64,000 bases of DNA. It comes from an uncultured Lachnospiraceae bacterium. Lineage in GTDB: Bacteria; Bacillota; Clostridia; Lachnospirales; Lachnospiraceae. Below are positions 2,266 to 19,904 of the stretch, piece by piece. The notes beneath the pieces were generated by a model. That model did not search any database and was not told the DNA's origin. It saw only the letters and a program-made list of their open reading frames with translations. The DNA lies in NCBI GenBank assembly GCA_905234595.1, contig CAJOID010000002.1:1-64000 (forward strand), given 5' to 3'. Position numbers and translations under genes: made by a program. Numbering within the stretch: the first letter of the stretch is position 1; each line of letters begins with the position of its first letter.

Positions 2266-3424
2266 TCAGATCCTGGCTACTCCGCTGTCGCGCGCTGCCT
2301 GTGCTGCGGCTGCAGCTACGGCATCCTTGACTCTGGGGTCGAATGCCTTGGGCAGGATGTTATCTGCCGAGAGTTCCTCATCCGGGATCAGACCGGCGAG
2401 TGCCTTGGCTGCGGCGATCTTCATTTCGTCATTTATATCGGATGCGCGTACATCGAGAGCTCCGCGGAAAATACCGGGGAAGCAGAGTACGTTGTTGACC
2501 TGGTTCGGGTAGTCGCTGCGACCGGTCGATACCACTGCGGCGCCTGCTGCCTTCGCCTCATCCGGGAATATCTCGGGAGTGGGATTTGCACAAGCAAATA
2601 CGATCGGATCCTTCGCCATGCTTCTTACCATATCCTGAGTGAGTGTACCCGGTGCGGACGTCAGCGCCTTTTATCACTTCGGCAAGAGTTCCTTTTTCCT
2701 TATTAAAGTTAGTGATCTTCGCCATCTCCTCCTTCACGGGATTTAAGCCCTCGCGTCCCTCGTAGATGGCTCCCTGACGGTCGGTCATGATGACATTCTT
2801 AAGTCCCATGGCCATGAGCAGTTTAATGATGGCGATGCCTGCTGCCCCCGCACCGGAAGTAACGATCTTGATATCCTCGATATTCTTGCCTACGACTTTC
2901 AGCGCATTCATCAGTCCGGCCAAAGTGATCACGGCCGTTCCGTGCTGATCGTCATGGAAGATCGGTATATCACAGCATTCCTTAAGCTTCTTCTCGATCT
3001 CGAAACATCTCGGAGCGGCTATATCCTCCAGATTGACTCCTCCGAAGCTACCTGCGAGCAGGCGGACCGTGTTTACTATCTCATCAACATCCTTGGATCT
3101 GATGCACAGCGGTATCGCATCCACATCACCGAAAGCCTTGAAGAGCACGCATTTACCCTCCATGACCGGCATTCCGGCTTCAGGACCTATATCCCCCAGT
3201 CCCAAGACCGCGGTTCCGTCAGTCACTACAGCAACCGTGTTCCATCTGCGGGTAAGGTCATAACTCTTATCTATGTCCTTCTGTATCTCGAGACACGGCT
3301 GTGCGACACCGGGCGTATATGCGATACTCAGCGCTTCCGAGCTGTCTACCGCAGCACGGCACTTAATCTCGATCTTACCTTTCCATTCCTCATGCTTCTC
3401 CAGCGATACTTTTGCATAATCCAT
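2266..3424 (-). pseudogene. NAD(P)-dependent malic enzyme, frameshifted
   Basis: ORF 2558-3424 matches malic enzyme up to EVIKGAD; the remainder ([30 protein letters not shown]...) continues in another frame in ORF 2266-2631. The residues expected between GAD and SAPG are missing. Confidence 0.85.
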
Positions 3425-3452: not shown

Positions 3453-5267
3453 TCAGTCTCTGATCAGCTTCTCGAGTCTGAGTATCTCAAACCCTTCCGC
3501 CTTACCTTTGAGCCGTATGGAATCACCCAGCGACGTGCACACAGCCCTGTCCCCAAGTATATCCGCAACGACTCTTGATATCAATACCTGACCTCCAGGA
3601 GCATTGGCCTCAAGTCTGGCGGCTGTGTTGATCGTATCGCCTATCGCAGTATAGTCCATACGCTTCGGCGCACCCACGTTACCTATGACCGCAGGTCCCC
3701 AGTGGACTCCTATGCCGAAATCGACCGTACGACCGAACCTTTCCTGAAGTTCCTTACCCAGAGCCACAGACCCCTCCACCATGTCCATAGCTGCACAACA
3801 GGCCAGATATACCGGATCCTCCTGCTCAACCGGGGCATTCCACAGAGCCATCGTACAGTCGCCGACGAACTTATCCAGAGTACCGTGGTTACGCATGATG
3901 CAGTCGGTAGTCAGAGTCAGATAGCGGTTGATGATCTCGATGACAGTCTCGGGATCGAGCGCCTCGCTCATCGTCGTGAAGCCTCTGACATCAACAAAAA
4001 GCGCCGCCACATCCTTGAGCTGCCCGCCCAGCTTAAGCGCCGAGCTGCCCTGATCAAGGAGCTGCTTCATGATCGCGGGATCTATATAATGACCAAAGGT
4101 GTTGGTTACTTTCTTTTTTTCACGCTGGGCGCGTACATAGTTGAGCGCCACGCTGCCGACGAACACGCACAGCACGAACAGCGGTATCCACAGCACGTGC
4201 AGGATATGTCCCGCGCGGTATGCGAGCATACAGATGAGGATCCAGCCTCCGATGAGCGCGATAGTGTAGATCACCGACCAGCGGACCTTTCTGTTTCTAT
4301 AGAAAAGACATGAAGCGAAGACAGCCGCGAACAGTATGATCAGCTGCAGCTCTTCTGACACGCTCTGCGGGAAGAATCCCCTCTCGAAAGCATCGATCAG
4401 ATTAGCCTGGAATTCAACGCCGTACATGGGCGCGGCGTGATCGATCGAGGTCGGGTATGAGTCCTGCATACCCACCGCATACGGACCGATCAGCACGACC
4501 TTACCAGCAAAGAACGCAGGATCGATAGTGCCGTCCAGCAGATCCGCCACCGAGATATTGTCATAGTAGCCACCGCCTGCTGCCGTATAGGGGATATAGT
4601 AGAAGCCTCCGTCGGTCGCGGGATTTTCTTTTGTGGCCTGTCCGGTGTTCTCACAGTACATCTCGTATATAACTCTCGCAAAAGAATATACATCTCCGGA
4701 TCCGGGCACGCTCTCGTACAAAAGAGCATGGCGCAGTATCGCGTCCTGATCCTCCATGGCATTGATATGGCCTATACGCGTCACGGCATAGAGTTCATCG
4801 AACGGCTCATCCCAGCCCACGATGTTATCGGACATATAGAAGTCATCACCCTCGACTACGAGTTCCCTGTCGTAGGTGGCGACTGCGGCTACGACGACAT
4901 TGCCTTTTGATGCAGCGGCACTCACCAGATGAGCGTCGGCATCGGGATCCGCACTCTCACCTACATAGAGCGTATCGACACCGATAGCTGCAGGGATACG
5001 GCCATCAGGATCGCTGTTTAGGTACTCGATCGCCTCCGCCATGATATGTCTCGACCACGGCATCGGGCCGATCTCGTCCAGCGCACGCTGATCCATGCCC
5101 ACGACAACGATGTCGGTGTTCACGATCCCGCCACGCTGATAGAGCGCGTCGGATACTACACCGTCAGGGACATAGAGCAGTCCCGTACCCGCGATCACAC
5201 ATGCTACAACGCTCACGGCCAGAGCGACCGCGAGCGTTACAAAAGATTTACGTAGTTTTCCGTTCAT
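3453..5267 (-). CDS. CHASE2-domain adenylate/guanylate cyclase (class III)
   Basis: Periplasmic CHASE2-like region (DIVVVGMDQRALDEIGPMPWSR), TM segments, then class III cyclase domain (FVDVRGFTTMSE, KFVGDCTMALWNAP, DYTAIGDTINTAARLEA). Start MNGKLRK at 5267 chosen to avoid overlap with the upstream gene. Confidence 0.9.
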   Translation of the reverse strand: MNGKLRKSFVTLAVALAVSVVACVIAGTGLLYVPDGVVSDALYQRGGIVNTDIVVVGMDQRALDEIGPMPWSRHIMAEAIEYLNSDPDGRIPAAIGVDTLYVGESADPDADAHLVSAAASKGNVVVAAVATYDRELVVEGDDFYMSDNIVGWDEPFDELYAVTRIGHINAMEDQDAILRHALLYESVPGSGDVYSFARVIYEMYCENTGQATKENPATDGGFYYIPYTAAGGGYYDNISVADLLDGTIDPAFFAGKVVLIGPYAVGMQDSYPTSIDHAAPMYGVEFQANLIDAFERGFFPQSVSEELQLIILFAAVFASCLFYRNRKVRWSVIYTIALIGGWILICMLAYRAGHILHVLWIPLFVLCVFVGSVALNYVRAQREKKKVTNTFGHYIDPAIMKQLLDQGSSALKLGGQLKDVAALFVDVRGFTTMSEALDPETVIEIINRYLTLTTDCIMRNHGTLDKFVGDCTMALWNAPVEQEDPVYLACCAAMDMVEGSVALGKELQERFGRTVDFGIGVHWGPAVIGNVGAPKRMDYTAIGDTINTAARLEANAPGGQVLISRVVADILGDRAVCTSLGDSIRLKGKAEGFEILRLEKLIRD

Positions 5268-5289
5268 ATCTTTACCATATCCTATATGA

Positions 5290-6369
5290 TCAGTATACAT
5301 CCTCCAGCTTAAGCACGTACACCCGTCGTGCAAAAGGATCACATACATAGAGACTGCCGTTATCTATAAACAGACCTCTCGGAGATACCGGATACATCTC
5401 GATATCCAGCTCATCGCCTTCTCGCTGGAGGATCGTGGTGACCTTATTATTCCGGATCATGCGCACTGTGGATGATACGGTATCTGCCACGAATACGGTA
5501 CCGTCGTCAGCGACTGCCACACCCTGCGGATAGCGGAATGTAGCTTTTTTGATGGAGCCATCGCCCAAGCCTCCCTCAGGAGTCTCTTCACCGGTACCGG
5601 CTATGACCTCGATCTGACCATCCTTAACTCGCACGATGCGGTTAGCGGCAGTCTCGGCTACATAGATGTAATCGCCGGCTGCGTACAGACCCATGGGACC
5701 ATTCAGCCCCTCGGCCACTGTTGTGACCTCACCGTCCGGAGTAACCCGGCGGATAGCACCCTTGCCGGTCTCGGATATATAGAGGTTACCGGCTTCATCC
5801 GTAGTCAGGCCTGTAGGCGTATCAAACTTCACTCCGAGATCGCCGATCTCGAGCTCCTCAGAATATCCGTTGACTGTCTGTGTAGTAGTGGAACTGATCA
5901 AACGGATCGCATTATTCTGGGTATCGGATACGGCATATCCGTTCAGAAAAGGACTGATCGCCCAAGGCTCCTTGAAGAGGCTGTCCTTAAGCTCCGAGTC
6001 ATTGTATCCGCCGAGGGGCTGGCCGTACATATCTTCGACACTTCCTTTTCCGGCATAGATGGATCCGCTGATGCTGTTGATGAGCCAGATCTGCTTGCCA
6101 TACACATCGGTCACCAGGAATCCCTGATCGGCTATGAGCGCGATGGAACTCGGCTCGCACAGCACATCCAGACCACCCATGGTCTGAGTCGCCACGTTCT
6201 CGACTGTACCGGCCTTCTTGCCATTATTCACGACCGCTACGATCACACTGATCACAATCGCCAGCACAACCACCGCTGCTGCAATGATGATGAGCAGACG
6301 GGGATTGTTCTTAATCGCATTTAGTTTTTCTTTTTTTTCAGTTTTAGATTTGTTTGTGTTGGTTTCCAT
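5290..6369 (-). CDS. NHL-repeat beta-propeller protein, membrane-anchored
   Basis: N-terminal TM (LLIIIAAAVVVLAIVISVIVAVV) and NHL-like repeats (FDTPTGLTTDEAGNLYISETGKGAIRRV, FRYPQGVAVADDGTVFVADTVSSTVRMI). ATG at 6369, or an in-frame TTG at 6381 overlapping the upstream stop. Confidence 0.88.
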   Translation of the reverse strand: METNTNKSKTEKKEKLNAIKNNPRLLIIIAAAVVVLAIVISVIVAVVNNGKKAGTVENVATQTMGGLDVLCEPSSIALIADQGFLVTDVYGKQIWLINSISGSIYAGKGSVEDMYGQPLGGYNDSELKDSLFKEPWAISPFLNGYAVSDTQNNAIRLISSTTTQTVNGYSEELEIGDLGVKFDTPTGLTTDEAGNLYISETGKGAIRRVTPDGEVTTVAEGLNGPMGLYAAGDYIYVAETAANRIVRVKDGQIEVIAGTGEETPEGGLGDGSIKKATFRYPQGVAVADDGTVFVADTVSSTVRMIRNNKVTTILQREGDELDIEMYPVSPRGLFIDNGSLYVCDPFARRVYVLKLEDVY

Positions 6370-6377
6370 GTTTATAA

Positions 6378-9300
6378 TCAATCGTCACCCTGAGTGTCGC
6401 CACTGCCGGAATCTCCGCCATCATTACCCTGCGTTCCGTCGGTGTTGTCACCGGAGTTACCGGGCTGGGTGTCTCCGGACTGGGAATCGCCCTTTGCAGG
6501 AATCATTGGATCTGTCGTGGTTGTGTCATTATCATCTCCGGAAGTCAGATCATCACCACTTTGCGGATAATCATTATTTCCACCCTTGTCAAAAATCGGG
6601 AATCCTAATCCTTCTCCTTTACTGGTGTCATCCGAGATTCCGCCATTATCATCATCGTAGTCTCCGCCTTTACCTGTTTCCATATCTCCCAGATCTCCGA
6701 TGTCACCCTTGTCATCCGAGCCGGGTATACTCTTGCCGCCCGGGAATGGTATCAGCTCATCATCCTTGCCGCCGGGAGTCTTTCCTCCGCCGGAGCTAAA
6801 GCTGCCTTCACCTTTAAGCTCACCTTCTCCGGTCGGTGCAGAGCCACTATACTGGCCGTTGTTATTAATCTCTGCGCCTTCATTATTAACTATAGAAGCG
6901 TTATTAGTAATCAGACCATACTCTTCTATGTTTATCTCACTACCGGAATTATTCTCAATCTGACCATTATTGGTAAGCACACCATAATACTTGACATTTA
7001 ACCTTCCGGGATGTCCATCTGTATCTCCGTTAACCAGCATGTTATAGTTGGTCAGAGTTCCGGTGACATTAATGGTGTTTTTACTCAGGTTAGCAAGGAG
7101 TCCGTTGTTTTCAAACTCTCCATCTGAAGCAATATTAATGGTTCCGTTATTCTCAAATATCGCATAATTCCCAAAGTATGCATTAGCTTCTACATCAATA
7201 GTTCCATTATTCTCCATCGATCCGCTGCCATCCATACCTCCGTTATAGAAGCTTCCTCCTTGGATCTCCAGACTGCCGTAATTTACAAAGCTTCCGGCAT
7301 TATATACAAAAGCATCCTCTCCTAAGGTCACTGTTCCATTATTCACCATGCTTCCATAGTTCTCTATGTATGCATCCTCATCAACAACCAAAGTAACACC
7401 AGATGCGATAGTCAAGCTATACTGAGAACCTACAACAAGCATTTTTCCTTCGGGAATCGTAAGATCCGATCCAATCGTGATATCACCCTGCAGGCTGATG
7501 GTTGAAGTGTTTTCATCAGCCAGAGCAGCTGCCAGCCCTTCCGCACTAGTAACCAACTGACTGAATACAGCAGAAACAGTTACATTATTCTCCGGCATGG
7601 TAAATGTGAATACGTTCGCTGTAGCAGTTTCATCGTAATCAATATAGTTTGAGTTACCCGATATAATGTTAAGGTACTGCATCTCATATCCTTCAGCCGG
7701 TGTAACTGTCAGAGTGACGGTGGTGCCGGCTTCCAGATTGGTTATATCATTATTGCCGGAAGTAGCAACTACTGTGCCATCTGTCATTCCATCAGCAATT
7801 GTTACGCAGTAGCCATCTCCGCCTTCGCAATGGATTGTCGCATTAAAGAGACAGTCATTTCCACTTAAACTACGTGACTTCAAGTTGTTCCATTGTCCTC
7901 TGCTGCCGGGATAGTAAACATCTGTAATAGAACTGCAGTTATAGAACATTCTGTAAGGAACAGATGTCAACGACAATGGAATATGTACTTCTTCTATATC
8001 ATCATCACCATCGAATACATTATCTCCATACGAGCAGGAACTCTCTGCCAGATCAACTCTCCGCATGTCACCGCTGGAGCAATATGCAAATGCATAATCT
8101 CCTACTTCTTCACATCCCGCAGGTATAGATACACTGCCCAGATAGTAGCAACCCCTGAAGGCGGACTCTTCTATATGTGTGATATTATCGCTAAGTTCTA
8201 TTCCGGTAAACGCTTCATTAGTGCAGTATGCAAAAGCATACTCTCCGATAGTTGTCACCGTTGAAGCAATACTGATATTCGAAGAGGAAAGTGAATACGC
8301 ACCATAGAATGCGTTGGAACCAATCCGTGTAATGCCATCCTCTATATTTATGGATGTGATTCCCGAATAACTGTAGGGCCTGCCATTTACGCCATAGTCT
8401 GCCATCGGACCATCGCCAAATACTGTGAATAGACCTTCTTCATCGAGCACGAAGAACGCATTCTGGTCATCTTCTGCTGCACAACTTCCGCTATAATTTA
8501 TATTGGGAGTTCCGCTTGTATCTACAGTTCCGGTACCTGTGATCGCATTTCCGGCAAACAGACCGCTGTCTGTTACTCTGCTACCTGCATTGTTAACAAA
8601 CGATCCAAGATTACCTACCCGGCCTGTTGTACCATTTACAAACCGTCCGGCATCATCACCAACACCGTTATTGAATACCGAGTTGCGCTTGATGTAGAAT
8701 CTGCCGTTATTAATGACAGTATTGATGCTCTTATTATTAATGGTACCGCAGCATACGAGTTCGCCATTATTCGTCAGGGTACCTGAGTTATTGATCACAC
8801 CTCCGGCTGCGATGGTAAGCGTCTTTCCGGCTGATACGATCAAACTCGTTCCACTGTCAACTACCAGGATCTTATTAGCTCCTATGGTAAGATCCGAATC
8901 AAGTGTCAGATCGGAAGTGATCCTTACCGCAGAATTAGCATTCAACAGAGTCTGCAGCTCGGCTGCTGTGGAACCGTTAAACGTTGTCGCATTCTCCCAT
9001 GAAACAAATTCAACATTTATGCTAACTGCCTGTGTCGGCATAATGAACATACCTGTTTCAACAGGGATCTCTGTGCCATTTGTCCCCGTTACGGTAATCT
9101 TACCTGTTTCATATCCCTCATTCGGTGTAGCAACGATGGTGATCTGCTCACCACCCATTACTGTTTGAGTGGCACCGATCTCGTTTTCTCCTATGAATGC
9201 TTTGACATTACCACCGGCTTCCGTATACTGTACAGATACGGTGTTCAGATGATTGAAATAGTAGAGTTTCGCATCAAGGAAATATGAATTTTCCTCCGGA

Positions 9301-12300
9301 TCTATGTTGATAGCATTCCATGTGGCTTCTGTTCCGCCATAATAGATTGATTCCAATGCATAACAATATCTGAATGCACTCTTCTCTATGGTCGTAAGAG
9401 TCCCATTAGAATCCAAAATGGTGACAGTAGTCAATTTAGAGTCAAAATCAAACGTTCCATCAAGAATTCGGGTAATACCGGAAGGAATGGTAATACTCTC
9501 AAGTTCTCCCATGTCTTCCAAGGCCCCGTAGGCAATTCTTTCCAAACCGGAAGGCAGATTCAACTCGGATATCTTAGTATTGGCAAATACGCTGGCGCCA
9601 TACCAGGAAGAATAGGAAGTACCTAACTTCTTAAGTGTATCCGGCAGAGTGATCGAATCCAGCTTACTGCAGTTTTTGAATGCACCATCCGGGAGAGTCT
9701 CCAGCGTATTCGGAAGCCGTACACTTGTAAGGTTCGTGCATCCCATAAACATCTTTTCGCCCATTTCGGTTCTTCCATCGGCAAATGTTACTGTCGTAAT
9801 GGCATCACAACCTTCAAATACTCTTTCACTAAATTCCGGTGAGGCCGGTATTGTTACGGATGTAAGCTTCGTTGCATTGAATGCGCTTTCTCCAATATAT
9901 ACATCTGTATCAGGTATCGTTACACTCGTTAACTGTTTACACCAGTTAAAGGCATTTGCTCCAACTCTTTCTATCGAAGCAGGCAAAACAACCTCGGATA
10001 TATATGTGTATTCAAATGCTTCCCTACCTATCCGGGTAACCGTATCCGAGAACGAAACGCTTCTAAGGGCTCTATAATTCGAATCTACGTTGTTGCTTGG
10101 AGAGGAGTAATATCCCTGGGCAAAATAATCTCCGACTTCAGTTACACCATCCTCAAATACAATACTCCTAAGCGAAGATCTGAATGAATACCACGCATTT
10201 GAATGACTGTTGGAAGAGGTATAATCGTCTGTGGAACCGATACCCAGTACATGAAGAGTTTTACTTCCTGAATTAACAGTATCATCATCCAGATAATAAT
10301 ATGCCGAATCGCCACAGATTCCGGTATTCTCAGTGATTGCAACAGTACCAGTGATCGTTCCGACTGTAGCGGAAGAGGTTTGTACTATCCTGCCTGTATT
10401 GTTTATAGTTGCACCCATATCGTCAGAAATGGTTCCATTAACAGCAATAGTTCCCGTATTTGTCAGAGTTGCATTCTCACCCAGACTAATAGTTCCTTCA
10501 TTGGTCATCACACCACTGTTGGTTACAGTACTACCGGCACCGATATTTAGTGTGCCTCCCGAAGCAACATTCAGGTATACTCCGGAACCGACTTCAACCT
10601 CTACACCATCAGGAATGGTCACATTTCCGGTGATAGCGATCATATTCCTGGTGGCATCTGTTCCATCAGGAGTAAGTGTGATCTTAGATGCTCCCATATT
10701 CAGATATGTCTGAAGCGCACTGGATCCGACAGGCATAGTCAGCGGTATAGCAGCTCCCGACGTCGCTACGGTAAATGTCGCACCTACAGTAATAGGAGTA
10801 ACCGGGTCAGGCATGGTGAATGTCTTAATGTTATCATTTGTACCCGACTGGATCCTGCTCGACAGATCAACTCCGCCCTCACCGGTAAGAGTCACAGTAT
10901 TAAGTTTTAATCCGGTATTAGGTGCAAATGTCAGAGTAACGGTCTCGCCTGCCTTAACCTTCTGAATACGTGAATTTGCAGGGGTAACGGTTATGGTTCC
11001 TCCCGTAGGAGTCAGGGAGGTAACTGCAGCACCCTTTTCTCTCACATAAATTGATACATTAACCTCTCTATTCTTCATGGTAAAGCTGTAATCAGGGGCG
11101 GAAAGACCTTCGCTTATCGTAGAACCGGTCTTGTCATTCTCCGCTTTATGTCTGGCAACCACTCCGATCAGATCATAAGTATCAGGATAACTAAAGACTA
11201 TATTAACAACATCACCCGTAGTGGCCTGGGTAATACCCTGGTCCGATCCTTTATCCGCACGGGCACTGAATCCCGTGGTATTGCCGGGGATAGCCATTCC
11301 CGAATCAGAATCCATAAATACTACACTGACAGGGTTGGTCGCAATGCCGGGGATACCGGAACCGTTTGTAAACTCCGCAGTAATCATAACGTCCTGATTC
11401 GGCATGGTAAATCTGAGCGTTGAATTGCTTGCGGAATAGTTGTATATGGTGGTCCATCCGTTTCCGTTGTCATACTCAACCTTCAGGGAGTGGAGTTCAT
11501 AACCCGTCGAAGGATATGCTGTCATATTGACAACCGTTCCTGCTGATGCCTGACTAACGCTCGTGTAGATGACACCATTGACCGGTGTCGGCGAAGAAAC
11601 CGTACCGTTGGAATAGTAGATATCAATATCGTGCAGCTGTGCAAAGACAACATCGATCGTGACATTACCTGCGGGCATGGTAAATGAGCCGACACCATTT
11701 GTATTAACGATGATCGGCGTAGCCGTACCGTTTTCAGGGGTATATGTCAGAGTCTTAAGCTCGTATCCGCTATCGGGGGTTGCCGTGATCTGAACCGTAT
11801 CTCCTGCGACTGCGCTGGTCTTATCCAGAGTGAGTGTACCACCGGTTATGTTATTAGGCAGAGTCGCCGTATATGTAGGAATCCACTTCGCATAGAAGGT
11901 CTTATCCCCGGTCTCGTCTGTTCCGATCACTGTCACGGGCTGATCGGTATCCGCAGGGCTGTTCGTCGTGAACCAACCGCCGAATGCATAATTATTCTTA
12001 GTCACATTCACCGGCAGTGTGGAGCCCACGCTATAGGTGTATGTGGTCGGATAACCGGCATCATTGATAACACCGTCATTTTTTTCATATACGATGTTAT
12101 AGGTTGCATTCTGGAATTCGGCATTGACTGTTATCGGGCAGTCGGGCATCCGGAATCTGTATACCGAACCTGCGGTTACTACCTCCAGCGTCACCTGATC
12201 ACCCTGTGAGTAATCCTCGTTGAGCTTATAAACCTCCAGTTTCTTTAATTCCTTGCCTGTTTCGGGAGTGATAGTGATGGTTACCCAGTCTCCGGCCTTA

Positions 12301-15300
12301 GTATTAGCAGAATCAAACGCGACTGTTCCGTTGGGTACTCCCGTGTTTAGATTGGATTTATACTTAGGTGTCCAATGCGCATAATATGTCCTGGCACCCG
12401 TCACATCTGTGCCGATAGCCGTAACCTGTGTACCATCGGTTTCTCCGGTGAACCATCCTGCGAATTCATATGTGCATCTGTCTGTAAATGCTCTGGTAAC
12501 ATCCGTAGGAAGGGTTGCGCCCACGCTATACTCATACTCCGACACATTACCTGTATTGATCACGCCACCCATAGTGTTCAGAGTTACGCCGTAATGCGCA
12601 TTCTTAAATGTAACGCTCACGGATATCGGACATGCAGGCATTGTGAATGTATATGTGATCGGATCGGTTTCGGGAGTCACTTTAGCAACATCATCTACCG
12701 TGTCTCCTGTCGGATTACCGCTTTCATCCAGCTTATTAACAGTGACGGTATCTATCACCTTGCCGGTCGGAGGTGTGATGGTGATGGTCACTGTATCGCC
12801 GGACTTGCTGTCCGCCGGGCTGACAGATGTCGTTCCGCTCTGTACCGTGTTGCCTATCTGTGACTTATACCTGGGTATCCAATGTGCATAGTAGGTCTTA
12901 TTGTCCAGATCTGTGGTAAGGATCTTCTCAACCCTGGTTCCGCCGGATGCAAGCGTATACCAGCCATCAAATACATATGATACGTATGTGCCTGCGGCTC
13001 TGGTCACATTTGCAGGAAGGGTGGTCTCCGTTCCGTATACATAAGATGTTACTGTCGATCCGTTGATCTGCGCAGAGGTGTCACCGTCGGCATTCAGATC
13101 CAGAGCCACAGCGTAGGTCCTGGGTGTGAATATTGCGTTGATGGTCACTGATGCCGTAGGCATGGTGAATGTACCGGTTAACTTACCATTGGACTCGCTG
13201 AAGGTTATGTCCTGAGCCGCAGTGGATCCTGCCTCGGTATAGGTCAGGGTCGTCAACCGGTATCCTGCAGCCGGGGTCGCAGTGACGGTGATCACGGTAT
13301 TCATGATCGCACTGTTTACGCTGACTGCGACAGTACCTCCAGTAAATGTACCTGAGTTATTGATGATCAGGTTATATGTCTCATATTCAAACTCTGCCGT
13401 AACGGTAACCTCACCGGCGGGCATATTAAACTTCTTCGTTGAAGTAATATCAGTTTCCGCGGTGTCTCCGGTGGCTTTGTATGTCAGAATCTTAAGCTTA
13501 TATCCTGCATCAGGCGTAACGGTCAGGTTGATCTCATCGCCCATATTCGCCTGAGTCTTATCCGGAGTAACGGTTCCTCCTACTGTCGATGTCGAAGTAT
13601 TTATAACTACGTTGTATGTCTCTTTTACGAATTCAGCGCTGATTGTTACATCGGCAGCCGGCATTGCAAAGGATGTACCGGTTATAGCCACAGGCGTAGC
13701 AGATCCGGCAGTAGTATATGAGAGACTCTGAAGCTTGTATCCGGTAGCCGGGGTAACGGTTACGTCTACAGTTGCATTTTTAGCTGCGGTTGCCTGGCCC
13801 ACGGAGATGCTTCCGTTGGATGTGTTGGCTACAGTGATGTTATATACGTTCTGATCCCATTTAGCATAGAATTCCTTATTGCCGGTCTCGGTATTACCTA
13901 TCGTTGTCACGGATGTATCGCTGTCCGTAGGGTTGGACATCGTGTACCAGCCCGCGAAGTGATAATCCGTCTTCGTAATATCCGTAGGCAGAGTTGTGGT
14001 CGTGCCATATGTATATGTGCCGGCCGGTGTGGTCGCGAACATTCCGCCGTTCTCATGATAGGTGATGGTGTATGTCACACCTGTAGGTGTCCAGCGGGCG
14101 TAGTACTCCTTGTCTCCGGTATCCGTATTGGATATGGATGTGACCTTATATCCGCCGGTTTCCTCCGTATACCACCCGTCAAAAGCATATGTATACTGCG
14201 CCGTGGCAGCCTTACTCATGTCGGCAGCAGCCGGCAGTGTTGCTCCGGTGCCGTATGTATAAGAAGTTACATTACCGCTGTTGACGGTACCGCCATCGTT
14301 ATGCAATGTTACGTTGTATGTACGCGCCGTGGAAGTCCAGTGTGCATAGAACTCTTTATCACCATTATCCGTTGCAGAGATGGCAGTTACCTGATTGCCG
14401 CCTGTTGCGGCATCGAACCACCCGTCAAAGGTGTAGCTGTACTGAGCATTAGTATCCCTGGTGACATTCACGGGAAGTGTGGTAACCGTGCCATAGGTGT
14501 ATTCGGTGACATTGCCGGCATTGATCGCTGCCGTAGTGTCACCGGCTGCGTTCAGATTGAGAGTGACGTTATATTTCAATGCCTCGAACTGCGCGTTGAC
14601 GGCAACATTGGCCGCAGGCATGGTGAATGAACCATGTCCGACGGTATCAATGGTTATCGGTGTTGCAGTTTTCCCTTCTACTGTATAAGTTGCGGATTTG
14701 AGCTGATATCCGAGTCCGGGTTCTACTGTTACATTGACCGTCTGACCATATTGAGCCGTAGTCGGTGCGGTATTATTTTCTACCGAAAGGTCTAAGGTCC
14801 CTCCGGTAACAGACGCCGGTTTGGTCAATTGATAATTGATCTTGGATGCGGTTACACGTATTTCAACCGGACCACTCGGCATAGTGAACCAGGTACTGCT
14901 TCCCACGGTATAGCTTATGTCCCAGTTGCTGTTTAAATTAGTCGGATTAACAAAAGAAACTGCATCTATCTGATAACCCGTTTTAGGTCTTACTGTCAGC
15001 GGAACATTTACACCTACTTTAACAAATGCCGGTGTACTTATTGTTACAAGATCATATTCAGTAGCAGAAATGACTGCACTTAAAGTCAATGGATGCATTG
15101 TATTAGGGTCGAACAACTCTCCATTGAATTCCGTGCCACCCCATACGGATATGAATCCGTAAGACGTACCTGTGGTCTCATCCAACTTTCCGACATCAGT
15201 TCCGAGCAGATTATCTGTCTTAGCAGTAATATGCATGTCATCAGAAGATGTCATAATATTGTGGAAATCAGTATTTGCGGGAACAGATATGGCTCCTCCG

Positions 15301-17555
15301 TCTCCCGTATTCTTGATCTCACCGGCATTCAGATGCACATTTGCTACGGTATTCAATACTACTGTCTGACCTGTCGTAGCCGAAGTGACCGTACCGGAGT
15401 TCATTGTAAATGAACCGCTCGAAACCTGCAGCGCCGTACCGGATGAAGTCAGGGTGCCACCATCCATGGTAAGTGCCGCACCTGCGATCGTCAGTGTCGT
15501 CCCTGTAGATGTCAGAGTACCGCCGTTTATGTTTACCGATCCGGCAGTTGCATTGATGCCTGAATCTGCACTGACCGTACCTCCGGATATGGTGAAGCTT
15601 CCCGTGGTGGTCATTGCGGAATTCAAATCCAACGTACCGGACGTGCTGAAGGTTCCGCTGTTGGTGACGCCACCGCTAAACTCGGATCTGCCGGATGAAG
15701 TATTATTAAATGTACCGGAATTTGTGAACGCTCCTACTACGGTCAGTGTATGCGAGCTGTTGACACTTAGATTACCGTTGTTTGCAAGCGAGCTTCCCAG
15801 ATTGGCAGTACCGTTTACCGCCGCGGATTTGCCGGAGTTTACATCAACCGGTACTCCTGCGCTGGCTGTCAGATTCTTGCCTGCGGGTACTGTGAAATCG
15901 ATATCTACATCAAGCGTGTTATTCCCGGAGCCGGGATTCAGGACAACCTTATTGACTCCTGACTGATTCAGGTAATCCTGAACCGTGGTCGCAGTCTGAG
16001 GCATGGTCAGTTCGACAGTCGAATTGGGGCTGTTATTGGGAGTATTGGTATTTGATGATCCGGGCTGAGTGGCAGGATCATTGTTCGTGCTGCCGGTTGG
16101 AGCCGGGCTGCCCGTCGAAGGAGTTGAAGCTGTTGGAGCAGCAGCCTGGGCAGACTGGGTGGGAGTAGCATCTGTTTTAGAGGGTGAAGACGGAGTACCC
16201 GGATCTGCGGGAGCTACAGCCTTCGTTACAGGATTATCTATAGGAAGTACACGCTCGGTGGGAGCGGGCTTTTCCTCTGCAGTCTCAGCCGGTGCTTCCG
16301 GTTCCTTTGCCGACTTATCGCCTCTTTCCCATACGGGATCCTTGGAGATATTACTCTCCTGTGCCGCTTCCGCTTCACGAATGGCCTGCATGCGCTCGGC
16401 TGTCTCGGCTTCCTTCTCCGCAAGCTTCTCTTCTGCTTCTTCCTGAGTCAGATTTCTCAGATCTATTCCTGACTGATCATATATCTTCTCTATGAGGGGA
16501 TCATCGCCTACAAGCTCCACGAGAACAAATCCGGGGATATCATCCTCGGTGAATCTGCTCGTGCTTATATCACAGCTTTCTCCATCGGGACTCACCGGAA
16601 TCTCGGGACGCTCATTATATGCGGAGCCCACGGCCTCTGACTCCTGCAATGCCTCACCGGTGCCTGCTGCCCCATCTTCCGGTGATGAAGTGTCGGCAGG
16701 TGTACCGGAAGTCTCGGAAGCCCCGGCTGATACAGCGCCGGTATCGGATGCGACCCCATCGGCTGATCCGTTGTTTTCATTATTACCCGCCCCTGAAGCA
16801 GCATTAGAGGAGCCTGCTGTTGCAGCTGATGCATCTGCTTTTTCACCGGATGCGGTATCAGTACCGACAGGCGTGGTAACCGGTACCTGCCCTCCGTCGG
16901 ATGTGCTGATCAGCTCGGGATTCTTATCGAATACCTCTACGCCGTATACCGTAAAGTCAGCCCACTCGCCGGCATGTATGGTGACTGTCTTGATCTGCCC
17001 GTCCACGGGATTGATGACCTTACAGTGGAGGACACCTTCCAGAAGGTGAACACGGGTATTACATCCGTCGACAATGCTGACCCATCCGCAAGTACCGCGG
17101 ATACCGGTCGCCATCGTAGACGTACGGATATTCATCGATTCATCTGATTTCAGGGGAACTGTTACATTGAAATAGAGATTGCCCGATACGAGCAATGCTT
17201 CGAGATTCTTGCCTTTCTGACGTACCTCGACCTCGCTGACTTCATCGACCTTGATAGCCTTGGAGTCATCCAGACTGATCCAGGCATAGGATGCGGTATC
17301 GGTGTCCACATCATCGCCGGAACCCAGACGCATACCGGCGGTGTAAGTCAGATCACCCTTGGTGATATTCGTTACACCGACATCACCCTCGGTCTGCTCT
17401 AGCCTCATCGACTTCGCCTTGGCGGAATTAGCCGCCTGAACATTCATCGGATGGGAAAGTACACTCGCGGCGCATAACACAAATACCAGCGCTTTGCACA
17501 TCAGGCTCCGGGCAATACTTGGTTTATTCGGTTTTCTCTCATCTAAAGAGCGCAT
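6378..17555 (-). CDS. Giant (3725 aa) FecR-domain surface protein with beta-solenoid cassettes, InlB-type B-repeats and BspA-like leucine-rich repeats
   Basis: Signal peptide (ALVFVLCAASVLSHPMNVQA), FecR-like domain (GDLTYTAGMRLGSGDDVDTDTASYAWISLDD...MATGIRGTCGWV), Pro/Thr/Ala linker, multiple YTYGTxxTLPxxV...FDGWF...ITAIS...KEFYAHW repeats, BspA LRRs (LTSVTIPDTDVYIGESAF), acidic Gly/Ser/Asp tail. Confidence 0.92.
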   Translation of the reverse strand: MRSLDERKPNKPSIARSLMCKALVFVLCAASVLSHPMNVQAANSAKAKSMRLEQTEGDVGVTNITKGDLTYTAGMRLGSGDDVDTDTASYAWISLDDSKAIKVDEVSEVEVRQKGKNLEALLVSGNLYFNVTVPLKSDESMNIRTSTMATGIRGTCGWVSIVDGCNTRVHLLEGVLHCKVINPVDGQIKTVTIHAGEWADFTVYGVEVFDKNPELISTSDGGQVPVTTPVGTDTASGEKADASAATAGSSNAASGAGNNENNGSADGVASDTGAVSAGASETSGTPADTSSPEDGAAGTGEALQESEAVGSAYNERPEIPVSPDGESCDISTSRFTEDDIPGFVLVELVGDDPLIEKIYDQSGIDLRNLTQEEAEEKLAEKEAETAERMQAIREAEAAQESNISKDPVWERGDKSAKEPEAPAETAEEKPAPTERVLPIDNPVTKAVAPADPGTPSSPSKTDATPTQSAQAAAPTASTPSTGSPAPTGSTNNDPATQPGSSNTNTPNNSPNSTVELTMPQTATTVQDYLNQSGVNKVVLNPGSGNNTLDVDIDFTVPAGKNLTASAGVPVDVNSGKSAAVNGTANLGSSLANNGNLSVNSSHTLTVVGAFTNSGTFNNTSSGRSEFSGGVTNSGTFSTSGTLDLNSAMTTTGSFTISGGTVSADSGINATAGSVNINGGTLTSTGTTLTIAGAALTMDGGTLTSSGTALQVSSGSFTMNSGTVTSATTGQTVVLNTVANVHLNAGEIKNTGDGGAISVPANTDFHNIMTSSDDMHITAKTDNLLGTDVGKLDETTGTSYGFISVWGGTEFNGELFDPNTMHPLTLSAVISATEYDLVTISTPAFVKVGVNVPLTVRPKTGYQIDAVSFVNPTNLNSNWDISYTVGSSTWFTMPSGPVEIRVTASKINYQLTKPASVTGGTLDLSVENNTAPTTAQYGQTVNVTVEPGLGYQLKSATYTVEGKTATPITIDTVGHGSFTMPAANVAVNAQFEALKYNVTLNLNAAGDTTAAINAGNVTEYTYGTVTTLPVNVTRDTNAQYSYTFDGWFDAATGGNQVTAISATDNGDKEFYAHWTSTARTYNVTLHNDGGTVNSGNVTSYTYGTGATLPAAADMSKAATAQYTYAFDGWYTEETGGYKVTSISNTDTGDKEYYARWTPTGVTYTITYHENGGMFATTPAGTYTYGTTTTLPTDITKTDYHFAGWYTMSNPTDSDTSVTTIGNTETGNKEFYAKWDQNVYNITVANTSNGSISVGQATAAKNATVDVTVTPATGYKLQSLSYTTAGSATPVAITGTSFAMPAADVTISAEFVKETYNVVINTSTSTVGGTVTPDKTQANMGDEINLTVTPDAGYKLKILTYKATGDTAETDITSTKKFNMPAGEVTVTAEFEYETYNLIINNSGTFTGGTVAVSVNSAIMNTVITVTATPAAGYRLTTLTYTEAGSTAAQDITFSESNGKLTGTFTMPTASVTINAIFTPRTYAVALDLNADGDTSAQINGSTVTSYVYGTETTLPANVTRAAGTYVSYVFDGWYTLASGGTRVEKILTTDLDNKTYYAHWIPRYKSQIGNTVQSGTTSVSPADSKSGDTVTITITPPTGKVIDTVTVNKLDESGNPTGDTVDDVAKVTPETDPITYTFTMPACPISVSVTFKNAHYGVTLNTMGGVINTGNVSEYEYSVGATLPTDVTRAFTDRCTYEFAGWFTGETDGTQVTAIGTDVTGARTYYAHWTPKYKSNLNTGVPNGTVAFDSANTKAGDWVTITITPETGKELKKLEVYKLNEDYSQGDQVTLEVVTAGSVYRFRMPDCPITVNAEFQNATYNIVYEKNDGVINDAGYPTTYTYSVGSTLPVNVTKNNYAFGGWFTTNSPADTDQPVTVIGTDETGDKTFYAKWIPTYTATLPNNITGGTLTLDKTSAVAGDTVQITATPDSGYELKTLTYTPENGTATPIIVNTNGVGSFTMPAGNVTIDVVFAQLHDIDIYYSNGTVSSPTPVNGVIYTSVSQASAGTVVNMTAYPSTGYELHSLKVEYDNGNGWTTIYNYSASNSTLRFTMPNQDVMITAEFTNGSGIPGIATNPVSVVFMDSDSGMAIPGNTTGFSARADKGSDQGITQATTGDVVNIVFSYPDTYDLIGVVARHKAENDKTGSTISEGLSAPDYSFTMKNREVNVSIYVREKGAAVTSLTPTGGTITVTPANSRIQKVKAGETVTLTFAPNTGLKLNTVTLTGEGGVDLSSRIQSGTNDNIKTFTMPDPVTPITVGATFTVATSGAAIPLTMPVGSSALQTYLNMGASKITLTPDGTDATRNMIAITGNVTIPDGVEVEVGSGVYLNVASGGTLNIGAGSTVTNSGVMTNEGTISLGENATLTNTGTIAVNGTISDDMGATINNTGRIVQTSSATVGTITGTVAITENTGICGDSAYYYLDDDTVNSGSKTLHVLGIGSTDDYTSSNSHSNAWYSFRSSLRSIVFEDGVTEVGDYFAQGYYSSPSNNVDSNYRALRSVSFSDTVTRIGREAFEYTYISEVVLPASIERVGANAFNWCKQLTSVTIPDTDVYIGESAFNATKLTSVTIPASPEFSERVFEGCDAITTVTFADGRTEMGEKMFMGCTNLTSVRLPNTLETLPDGAFKNCSKLDSITLPDTLKKLGTSYSSWYGASVFANTKISELNLPSGLERIAYGALEDMGELESITIPSGITRILDGTFDFDSKLTTVTILDSNGTLTTIEKSAFRYCYALESIYYGGTEATWNAINIDPEENSYFLDAKLYYFNHLNTVSVQYTEAGGNVKAFIGENEIGATQTVMGGEQITIVATPNEGYETGKITVTGTNGTEIPVETGMFIMPTQAVSINVEFVSWENATTFNGSTAAELQTLLNANSAVRITSDLTLDSDLTIGANKILVVDSGTSLIVSAGKTLTIAAGGVINNSGTLTNNGELVCCGTINNKSINTVINNGRFYIKRNSVFNNGVGDDAGRFVNGTTGRVGNLGSFVNNAGSRVTDSGLFAGNAITGTGTVDTSGTPNINYSGSCAAEDDQNAFFVLDEEGLFTVFGDGPMADYGVNGRPYSYSGITSINIEDGITRIGSNAFYGAYSLSSSNISIASTVTTIGEYAFAYCTNEAFTGIELSDNITHIEESAFRGCYYLGSVSIPAGCEEVGDYAFAYCSSGDMRRVDLAESSCSYGDNVFDGDDDIEEVHIPLSLTSVPYRMFYNCSSITDVYYPGSRGQWNNLKSRSLSGNDCLFNATIHCEGGDGYCVTIADGMTDGTVVATSGNNDITNLEAGTTVTLTVTPAEGYEMQYLNIISGNSNYIDYDETATANVFTFTMPENNVTVSAVFSQLVTSAEGLAAALADENTSTISLQGDITIGSDLTIPEGKMLVVGSQYSLTIASGVTLVVDEDAYIENYGSMVNNGTVTLGEDAFVYNAGSFVNYGSLEIQGGSFYNGGMDGSGSMENNGTIDVEANAYFGNYAIFENNGTINIASDGEFENNGLLANLSKNTINVTGTLTNYNMLVNGDTDGHPGRLNVKYYGVLTNNGQIENNSGSEINIEEYGLITNNASIVNNEGAEINNNGQYSGSAPTGEGELKGEGSFSSGGGKTPGGKDDELIPFPGGKSIPGSDDKGDIGDLGDMETGKGGDYDDDNGGISDDTSKGEGLGFPIFDKGGNNDYPQSGDDLTSGDDNDTTTTDPMIPAKGDSQSGDTQPGNSGDNTDGTQGNDGGDSGSGDTQGDD

Positions 17556-17603
17556 CTGTCATTCCCTGATTGCTTTAATAACAGCTCATTATGTTTATGT
17601 TTT

Positions 17604-17632
17604 TTGACAAAATCTCAGCATATAAGTATATT
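17604..17632 (+). promoter_or_regulatory. Putative sigma70 promoter for the HD-GYP gene
   Basis: TTGACA (17604-17609), 17-bp spacer, TATATT (17627-17632). Confidence 0.65.
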
Positions 17633-17717
17633 GCGAATAACAGATGACGGAATACCCCCAAAAGTCGGTATTTTGGTAATAACCGATAAAGATATAATGA
17701 GGCAGGAGGTTTGTCAT

Positions 17718-19904
17718 ATGAGCGAAGGATCTGTAAAGACAGCCATACGGACAGGAAAAGTAAGTAAAATCGCGGAAAAACTGTTCTATTTCAGTATCGT
17801 GGCTGCCCTGATAATATCTGCAATCATCATGGGTATAGCAAGATATGATACCGATATAACCGGCGAGGCGGATATGGGTTCCTTCTCCACGCGCAGTTTC
17901 AATGAGGGATGGCGTATGGATAATGACTCCATCACCCTCCCTGCTACCGTAGACAGTCATGTATATGATGAAGTTACGATCATAAACACTCTGCCGGATG
18001 ACATCAGTGACGGTTCGACTCTGATGATCCGGTCATCCATGGAGGATGTATATATCTACGTGGATGGTGATATCCGTACATTCTACTCGACCGATTCGAT
18101 CAGAGGTATGCCGTACTACATCCCCAGCGCTTATGTGGTTGCGGACCTTGATTCCGCCGATTCGGGTAAAACGGTCAGGATCACTTTTAAGTTTAAGTCC
18201 GCCGGTGAACTCAACGAAGTGGTCATCAGTAACGGTAACAATGCCTGGTTTAAGGTGATCAGCGATTCATTGCCAGTGAATCTCATAGCACTGTTCGTTC
18301 TGGCCGTGGGCATCATCATAGTGATCGTGACTCTCCTGCTTAACGGCTCCTATCACGTCACCGCACCCAGGAGTCTGGGATTGCTGATGGTAAACGTGGC
18401 CCTGTGGGTATTCGGTGAATCCACCTTACGTCAGATCATTTTCCGCCGGGCGACTCTTTCACAGTATTTCTCATATATCAATGTCGAGCTCATCGGCATA
18501 TTCGTCTGCATGTTCTATGATGAAGTCCAACGCAGACGGTATCATAAAAGATATCTGGCAGCCGAGATCATCCTGTTCGTTCAGCTGCTGCTCAATATAC
18601 TCCTGGATGTGACCGGAATCTGCGAACTCTACCGTACACTTCTGATAAGTCATTTATGGGCCGGAGCCGGATTCATCATGATAATCGTCACCCTGATCAC
18701 CGACGGCAGGAAGCATCAGATCCGCGGTTACAGGATCACTGCCATAGGTATGATCTGCTTCGTAGCAATGGCACTGGTTGAGCTTCTCGGCTTCTATATC
18801 AACCGATTCCACCTGTTCGGATCCTCCATCTGTATCGGCCTGCTGCTCCTCATGACCGCGACCATATTACAGACCGTGTCAGACGAAGTACGCGTATTCC
18901 ATGAACGCGAGGAGGAACAGCTCAGGACAACCATCACTACCATCGAAACCATCGCAAGTGCGATAGACGCAAGAGACGAATACACCGGCGGACACTCCGA
19001 GCGCGTAGGTCTCTACGCAGTCAGGCTGGCCAGGGAAATGGCGCCCGAATATGGTCTGAGCGAGGAACAGATACTCAGGATCCACTACATCGGCCTGATG
19101 CACGATATCGGTAAGATAGGGGTTGCCGACTCCGTTCTGAACAAGTCGGGCCGTCTGACAAACGAAGAATTCAGTCTGATGAAGAAGCATCCGGAGATAG
19201 GATATGAGATCATGCAGTCTCTGGGCGGAAGCATAGACGGTCTTCTGGACGGTATCAGGTATCACCACGAAAGATATGACGGACACGGCTATCCCGATGG
19301 TCTGGCCGGTACCGGTATTCCTCTGATAGCCCGGATACTGGCGCTTGCTGACAGCTTTGATGCCATGACATCTAACCGTGTATATCGCAAGAGGCTTACC
19401 GATGAAGAGGTCAGATCAGAGCTTCTCAGATGTTCCGGAACTCAGTTCGATCCTGAACTGACGACAATATTTGTCCGGCTTCTGGATCGCGGCGAACTGA
19501 AACTCAACACAGTGGACGGAGTCGCCGCTGATGAATGCGGACGGGTAATGAAATCCGCCCTGCTTGAGTCCCGCCTTCAGCATGATCTGCTGGCAGATAC
19601 GGATATCTCCAACCCGTCGCATGTACGCATGCTCTGCTATGTAATGAAGCTTATGGAGAAAAAGGGAAATGAATACACCGTACTATTTACGGGCTTGACT
19701 CCCGATGAAAAAGACGGATCCGGTGAGACCTGGGCTTCTGCAAAGAAGACCATAAGTGAGCATATAGGCTCTTATGATGTGAATATAGAGTACACCGGAG
19801 AGACTAATATAATTGCTCTGTATGACCGGAACGACTCACAGGTGAATGATTTCATTGCCGGACTTAAGGAAATATCCGGTCGGATCACAACAGATAAGCT
19901 CTAG
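17718..19904 (+). CDS. 7TM (DISM-like) sensor HD-GYP domain protein
   Basis: ATG at 17718 with SD GGCAGGAGG. Extracytoplasmic domain, multiple TMs, HD-GYP motifs (HDIGKIGV, HHERYDGHGYPDGLAG, ADSFDAMTS). Confidence 0.9.
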   Translation: MSEGSVKTAIRTGKVSKIAEKLFYFSIVAALIISAIIMGIARYDTDITGEADMGSFSTRSFNEGWRMDNDSITLPATVDSHVYDEVTIINTLPDDISDGSTLMIRSSMEDVYIYVDGDIRTFYSTDSIRGMPYYIPSAYVVADLDSADSGKTVRITFKFKSAGELNEVVISNGNNAWFKVISDSLPVNLIALFVLAVGIIIVIVTLLLNGSYHVTAPRSLGLLMVNVALWVFGESTLRQIIFRRATLSQYFSYINVELIGIFVCMFYDEVQRRRYHKRYLAAEIILFVQLLLNILLDVTGICELYRTLLISHLWAGAGFIMIIVTLITDGRKHQIRGYRITAIGMICFVAMALVELLGFYINRFHLFGSSICIGLLLLMTATILQTVSDEVRVFHEREEEQLRTTITTIETIASAIDARDEYTGGHSERVGLYAVRLAREMAPEYGLSEEQILRIHYIGLMHDIGKIGVADSVLNKSGRLTNEEFSLMKKHPEIGYEIMQSLGGSIDGLLDGIRYHHERYDGHGYPDGLAGTGIPLIARILALADSFDAMTSNRVYRKRLTDEEVRSELLRCSGTQFDPELTTIFVRLLDRGELKLNTVDGVAADECGRVMKSALLESRLQHDLLADTDISNPSHVRMLCYVMKLMEKKGNEYTVLFTGLTPDEKDGSGETWASAKKTISEHIGSYDVNIEYTGETNIIALYDRNDSQVNDFIAGLKEISGRITTDKL

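Follow-up and report, generated by a model that had tools for sequence, protein, structure and literature searches.

The DNA analyzed here (the window) is a 64,000-nt stretch from an uncultured Lachnospiraceae bacterium (GenBank assembly GCA_905234595.1, contig CAJOID010000002.1, positions 1 to 64,000). Three of its minus-strand genes, encoding a giant secreted FecR-domain protein, an NHL-repeat protein and a CHASE2 class III cyclase, form what we consider, on balance, to be a trans-envelope cyclic AMP (cAMP) signaling locus in which FecR gates the CHASE2 cyclase and the NHL protein is an accessory. The locus is a Gram-positive variant of the known FecR-CHASE2 theme. Four open reading frames (ORFs) were confirmed (3453-5348, 5290-6381 and 6378-17555 on the minus strand; 17604-19904 on the plus strand), and these frames and their Pfam matches bore out the layout proposed in a first-pass annotation of the window, namely the three genes above with a divergent HD-GYP gene. 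The features of the three minus-strand genes are as follows.

6378-17555, minus strand: 3725-aa secreted FecR-domain protein (signal peptide, FecR, repeats, acidic tail)
17031-17315, minus strand: FecR domain, PF04773 (aa 81-175 of the giant; Pfam and AlphaFold)
5290-6369, minus strand: NHL-repeat propeller with one N-terminal transmembrane helix (TM); probable ATG start at 6369 (earlier taken as TTG 6381)
3453-5267, minus strand: CHASE2 class III adenylate cyclase; probable ATG start at 5267, 604 aa (a longer ORF runs from 5348)
4323-5201, minus strand: CHASE2 extracytoplasmic sensor domain (Pfam and AlphaFold)
3498-4016, minus strand: class III cyclase catalytic domain (Pfam and residue alignment)

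FecR and CHASE2 genes occur together within and beyond the family

A search of Lachnospiraceae genomes for conserved FecR/NHL/CHASE2-cyclase synteny had been set beforehand as a check on the annotation, and such synteny was found with high significance, also beyond the family. Among 397 genomes of the same family, CHASE2 was present in 61 (about 15%) and FecR in 54, with 47 of the 54 FecR genomes also having CHASE2 (Fisher p about 1e-40); the profile search scores few candidates per genome, which makes absences less certain than presences. Forty-seven of 75 FecR genes were located on a CHASE2-bearing contig, all 47 within 12 kb of CHASE2 and 39 of them no more than 5 kb away. Full-length GAF-HD-GYP proteins were found in 46 genomes (42 CHASE2-positive) and full-length SpoIIE phosphatases with a cyclic nucleotide monophosphate-binding domain (cNMP-SpoIIE) in 11 (10 CHASE2-positive). 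These co-occurrence and adjacency statistics rule out a chance neighborhood.

Two layouts were observed in 66 family neighborhoods: metallo-beta-lactamase (MBL)-fold protein, GAF-HD-GYP, FecR, (NHL), cyclase; and cyclase, TIM barrel, GAF-HD-GYP, FecR. A wider scan of a genome collection covered 80 named CHASE2 loci, and FecR was positioned within 8 kb of CHASE2 in 31 of the 37 loci flanked on each side by 4 kb or more. The cyclase/FecR/NHL trio recurred in shuffled orders in many Paenibacillus and also in Cohnella, Clostridium aestuarii, Defluviitaleaceae and further Clostridia. The window genome itself encodes exactly two class III cyclases, both of which have CHASE2; its FecR genes likewise number exactly two, and each cyclase has one of them beside it. 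In a quick cyclase tree, the cyclase of the window fell in an MBL-type group and the second cyclase of the genome in a TIM-type group, with Paenibacillaceae sequences in a further group; the tree is weak in its deep branches and brings some long ones together, so no order of gain is claimed.

FecR follows the sensor rather than the output

FecR adjoins CHASE2-HD-GYP fusions at three loci (L043, L053 and L064), and FecR together with NHL adjoins a CHASE2-SpoIIE fusion at a fourth (L038). Because FecR is kept beside these fusions and beside the CHASE2 kinases of Burkholderia, its partnership goes with the sensor rather than with a cAMP output. Mirror-tree comparison of 77 pairs gave r = 0.78 for FecR and CHASE2, with a partial r of 0.47 given the catalytic domain. 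At 36 loci that also have GAF-HD-GYP, the partial r of FecR was 0.545 with CHASE2, 0.27 with the catalytic domain and 0.08 with GAF-HD, whereas GAF-HD reached 0.29 with the catalytic domain and 0.17 with CHASE2. These sequence distances suggest that FecR co-diverges with CHASE2 more than with the catalytic domain, and they are suggestive only because distances share ancestry and domain lengths differ. As FecR stays when the output changes and its divergence tracks CHASE2, the FecR-CHASE2 pair is likely the sensing core, with NHL as accessory.

Several observations, including the limits of the mirror-tree comparison, weigh against gating by FecR. No FecR-CHASE2, NHL-CHASE2 or other FecR/NHL/CHASE2 fusions were found, the fusions seen in that search being only TIM-GAF-HD and MBL-GAF. 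Two genus-mates had no CHASE2, FecR or NHL, and the MBL and GAF-HD-GYP genes of the window genome, which are adjacent to each other on contig C101, are unlinked to either cyclase in the assembly. Moreover, in Sinorhizobium meliloti the gene smc02177, which encodes a FecR-domain protein, is among the targets of Clr/cAMP, i.e., an output (PMC5498481). This last point and the adhesin-like tail of the giant would fit an alternative in which the FecR giant and NHL protein are themselves outputs, surface proteins under the control of the neighboring cAMP system. We consider this unlikely, as FecR persists next to CHASE2 when the output is HD-GYP, SpoIIE or a Burkholderia kinase, and its divergence follows that of CHASE2 more closely than that of the catalytic domain.

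Structure of the cyclase and the FecR giant

The cyclase ORF matched the Pfam families CHASE2 (126.6 bits) and Guanylate_cyc (79.2 bits), with CHASE2 placed between TM1 and TM2-4 and the class III catalytic domain in the cytoplasm. The metal-binding and transition-state residues that had been recognized in the window are indeed retained: D453 and D497 (metals), K493/T567 (predicted adenine pair), and N574 and R578 (transition state; numbering of the 631-aa version) were invariant in 15 sequences. The best PDB matches for the catalytic domain were adenylate cyclase catalytic domains (CyaB2/CyaC-type structures). We take the Lys-Thr pair to be of the class IIIb adenylate cyclase type, so that cAMP would be the expected product. 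AlphaFold modeled CHASE2 and the TMs with high confidence (pLDDT 95) as TM1, an extracytoplasmic alpha/beta domain, three more TMs and a signaling helix. A fold search of the PDB with CHASE2 returned no match below E 0.6 and a sequence search of the PDB returned none, and the modeled domain appears to be a fold without a solved relative. No published CHASE2 ligand was found in the literature.

The FecR domain of the giant (aa 81-175; 36.6 bits, cut-off 24) was detected by Pfam only when the N-terminus was scanned separately, and is missed in a full-length scan. Its AlphaFold2 model (pLDDT 91.5; domain at aa about 44-196) gave the PupR cell-surface signaling domain as best PDB fold match (6ovk, E 1.7e-5), followed by structures of another putative anti-sigma factor (4m0n and 4m0h), with no other match below E 0.001. 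The window protein thus shares its FecR fold with FecR/PupR anti-sigma regulators but lacks their architecture of an N-terminal cytoplasmic anti-sigma domain and a single internal TM: it begins with a signal peptide and has no anti-sigma region, and for this reason the giant is not a FecR anti-sigma regulator. As the secreted protein of a Gram-positive, it is also not expected to act with an outer-membrane transducer. It also features a helical linker, Pro/Ser/Thr-rich linkers, repeats assigned by Pfam to LRR_5, Flg_new_2 and Flg_new (BspA-type leucine-rich and InlB-B-type repeats) and an acidic tail, and has neither an LPXTG motif nor a C-terminal TM.

The giant adhesin had been put forward as the core receptor, which was not supported by comparison with its relatives. 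FecR proteins at CHASE2 loci have a median length of 543 aa (some are cut by contig ends), and the window protein exceeds all the others in length by a wide margin. Its FecR segment has matches in 69 others, most tail segments in only one to four, and the linker at aa 235-330 and the acidic tail in none. Only the FecR domain and a short helical segment are conserved; the tail is ruled out as a conserved component by the few or no matches of most of its segments and, judged from these comparisons, is a lineage-specific addition that probably serves as a contact or adhesin module.

The NHL protein is likely a dedicated accessory

The middle ORF contains NHL repeats (PF01436, 62 bits) behind one N-terminal TM. 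Its subfamily, defined by profile A1 with E up to 1e-20, occurred in 11 of the 397 family genomes; all 11 are CHASE2-positive and carry it on the CHASE2 contig (about 10 kb off in one case). NHL is found in the MBL-type and Paenibacillaceae-containing cyclase groups, never in the TIM-type group, and an NHL gene is lacking from the majority of FecR/CHASE2 loci. Because NHL is missing from most loci and from the TIM-type clade, FecR-CHASE2 pairs must work without it, and the protein is likely a dedicated accessory of the FecR-CHASE2 core. The first-pass annotation had instead proposed a serial route, in which the giant adhesin binds a surface and signals through the NHL propeller to activate CHASE2. 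The gene order in the window would suit such a route, as would a TM-anchored NHL protein that is exclusive to CHASE2-positive genomes in the family sample, but with this order shuffled among loci and NHL lacking from most of them and from a whole clade, it is very doubtful. NHL is ruled out as an obligate relay, since it is missing from the majority of FecR/CHASE2 loci, and the divergence of FecR follows that of CHASE2 directly.

Gene junctions and the divergent HD-GYP gene

The probable start codons are ATG 5267 for the cyclase, some 22 nt past the NHL stop, and ATG 6369 for NHL. With these corrected starts the gaps between the three minus-strand genes are about 8 and about 22 nt, which agrees with their reported near-adjacency; conversely, the 59-nt overlap of the cyclase and NHL frames is probably not real, given the probable cyclase start. 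No terminator-like site was listed by a scan at either junction. A malic enzyme gene (2266-3424, minus strand) is positioned on the same strand 28 nt downstream of the cyclase; a frameshift near 2600 breaks it into two fragments, which match successive parts of Malic_M.

Two features were assigned to the divergent gene.

17718-19904, plus strand: multi-TM DISM-like HD-GYP protein, 728 aa, ATG start at 17718; accessory candidate
17604-17632, plus strand: promoter-like TTGACA-17-TATATT (11/12) upstream of the HD-GYP gene; consensus match only

For the HD-GYP gene the most likely start is ATG 17718, which has AGGAGG ahead of it, and the TTG at 17604 forms the first letters of the promoter match, a type of match whose number in the region is not above chance. 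The protein contains HDIGK and HHERYDGHGYP motifs; by hydropathy, a first TM leads into an extracytoplasmic stretch, and at least five TMs come after it. The 7TMR-DISM character suggested for it earlier was not borne out, as 7TMR-DISM Pfam models gave no match up to E 10. A 54% identical homologue is located in the CHASE2 neighborhood of one other genome, and so close a match was present in only two of 11 genomes searched (that genome and the window's own), a non-random set that included the already known case. The DISM-like HD-GYP protein is an accessory candidate; one homologue is too few for a claim. Cross-talk with cyclic dinucleotides, which the gene had been taken to suggest, is plausible, but the recurrent partners are GAF-HD-GYP and MBL-GAF-GGDEF proteins more than this gene.

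Candidates for effectors and cAMP removal

In our judgement, neighboring proteins may act as effectors or in cAMP removal. Two weak resemblances were noted for the MBL-fold protein of related clusters, one to RNase Z and one to a family of cyclic-nucleotide phosphodiesterases, where its 39 bits lie below the cut-off of 400. For the cluster GAF-HD-GYP, the GAF part matched GAF structures of PDE5, PDE10 and a cyanobacterial adenylate cyclase, and the HD part matched an HD-GYP phosphohydrolase (4mcw) and a 3'3'-cyclic GMP-AMP (3'3'-cGAMP) phosphodiesterase (5z7c). An insertion of about 100 aa was noted inside the HD-GYP domain of GAF-HD-GYP (L025, 1145-2611) and its relatives, and likewise in CHASE2-HD-GYP fusions. 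Directly downstream of CHASE2 cyclases, MBL-GAF-GGDEF replaces separate MBL and GAF-HD-GYP proteins at L104 (11769-13517) and likewise at L106, L108, L109, L117, L122 and L125. At L065 (16788-19085) and L157 (3730-6003), a xylose-isomerase-like TIM barrel is fused to GAF-HD-GYP beside the CHASE2 cyclase.

The cNMP-SpoIIE phosphatases of related clusters have an intact GE..L..R.AT motif. Genes for cNMP-SpoIIE, STAS and HATPase_c_2 proteins adjoin CHASE2 cyclases at L010, L028, L119 and L120, and a PilT-like T2SSE ATPase is located near them in L010, L119 and L120, where a cAMP-gated partner switch linked to pili is possible. In the window genome, contig C67 (L069, 260-1890) encodes a cNMP-binding protein (161 aa; motif FGEMALIDSDVRSATV), which adjoins an RCK/TrkA-type channel protein and is a putative cAMP receptor. 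A CRP-like protein on contig C14 was ruled out as cAMP receptor, as it has no phosphate-binding-cassette motif.

Discussion

From the gene content, conserved association, catalytic residues, predicted FecR and CHASE2 folds and co-divergence, we infer a physical contact, direction of signaling, product, effectors and ligand as follows. The PupR-like FecR domain of the secreted protein would dock on the part of the membrane cyclase that lies outside the cytoplasm, its CHASE2 domain, and outside contact of the FecR protein or its repeat tail would alter CHASE2, a change that the signaling helix would relay to the class III catalytic domain to produce cAMP. The NHL propeller would be a dedicated accessory in the same extracytoplasmic complex. 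Readers of this cAMP would be cNMP-binding proteins, joined in related clusters by GAF-HD-GYP or GAF-GGDEF proteins, through which it would be coupled to cyclic dinucleotides; the MBL-fold protein may remove it. That the genes are mere neighbors without functional coupling, or that the cyclase is inactive, could be argued from the frame-shifted malic enzyme next door but is hardly credible in light of the co-occurrence and adjacency statistics, the recurrence across classes and the invariant catalytic residues.

FecR was previously found beside CHASE2 adenylate cyclases in Campylobacterota, together with a phosphodiesterase and a tetratricopeptide repeat (TPR) protein (PMC9239204). A CHASE2 class III cyclase adjoins a FecR-domain protein in both settings, whereas the locus described here is Gram-positive, combines a secreted FecR with giant repeats and an NHL propeller, and has relatives with GAF-HD-GYP/GAF-GGDEF and cNMP-SpoIIE partners. 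The phosphodiesterase is part of the cluster in Campylobacterota; here, the MBL-fold candidate belongs to related clusters and lies on another contig in this genome. No TPR match was seen among the neighbors scanned, although no dedicated TPR search was made. The Burkholderia BiofilmReg operon (PMC5192318) likewise pairs a secreted FecR-domain protein with a CHASE2 receptor, but its output is a two-component histidine kinase, its FecR protein carries LysM (none here) and it has no NHL protein. In S. meliloti, a protein signal from outside the cell acts through NsrA, a protein of the outer membrane, on the CHASE2 cyclases CyaD1, CyaD2 and CyaK, which then raise cAMP (PMC13001267). This resembles the present proposal in its cyclases, extracellular protein signal and envelope protein, but the envelope partner there is an outer-membrane beta-barrel, FecR is a regulon target and the effector is Clr. 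The claim that such a system had not been described thus holds in part: FecR-CHASE2 association has been published in Campylobacterota and Burkholderia, while no paper on FecR-CHASE2 in Gram-positives, or on CHASE2 and NHL together, was found in the open-licence literature, and the NHL partner and the Gram-positive version appear undescribed.

Signaling by cAMP in gut Clostridia has been little studied, and the CHASE2 loci offer a consistent extracytoplasmic partner together with candidate removal enzymes and effectors. Tentatively, and with the odds slightly against it, Gram-positive Clostridia and Bacilli may possess a complete and so far undescribed cAMP system, in which FecR (with or without NHL) gates CHASE2, MBL proteins remove cAMP, and GAF-HD-GYP/GAF-GGDEF proteins (cyclic di-GMP) and cNMP-SpoIIE proteins acting on STAS/anti-sigma partner switches are the readers. 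Given that CHASE2 has no ligand found and no PDB match, a natural binding partner would open up a receptor class. Overall, relatives of this gut-type Gram-positive bacterium probably report cell-surface events through cAMP.

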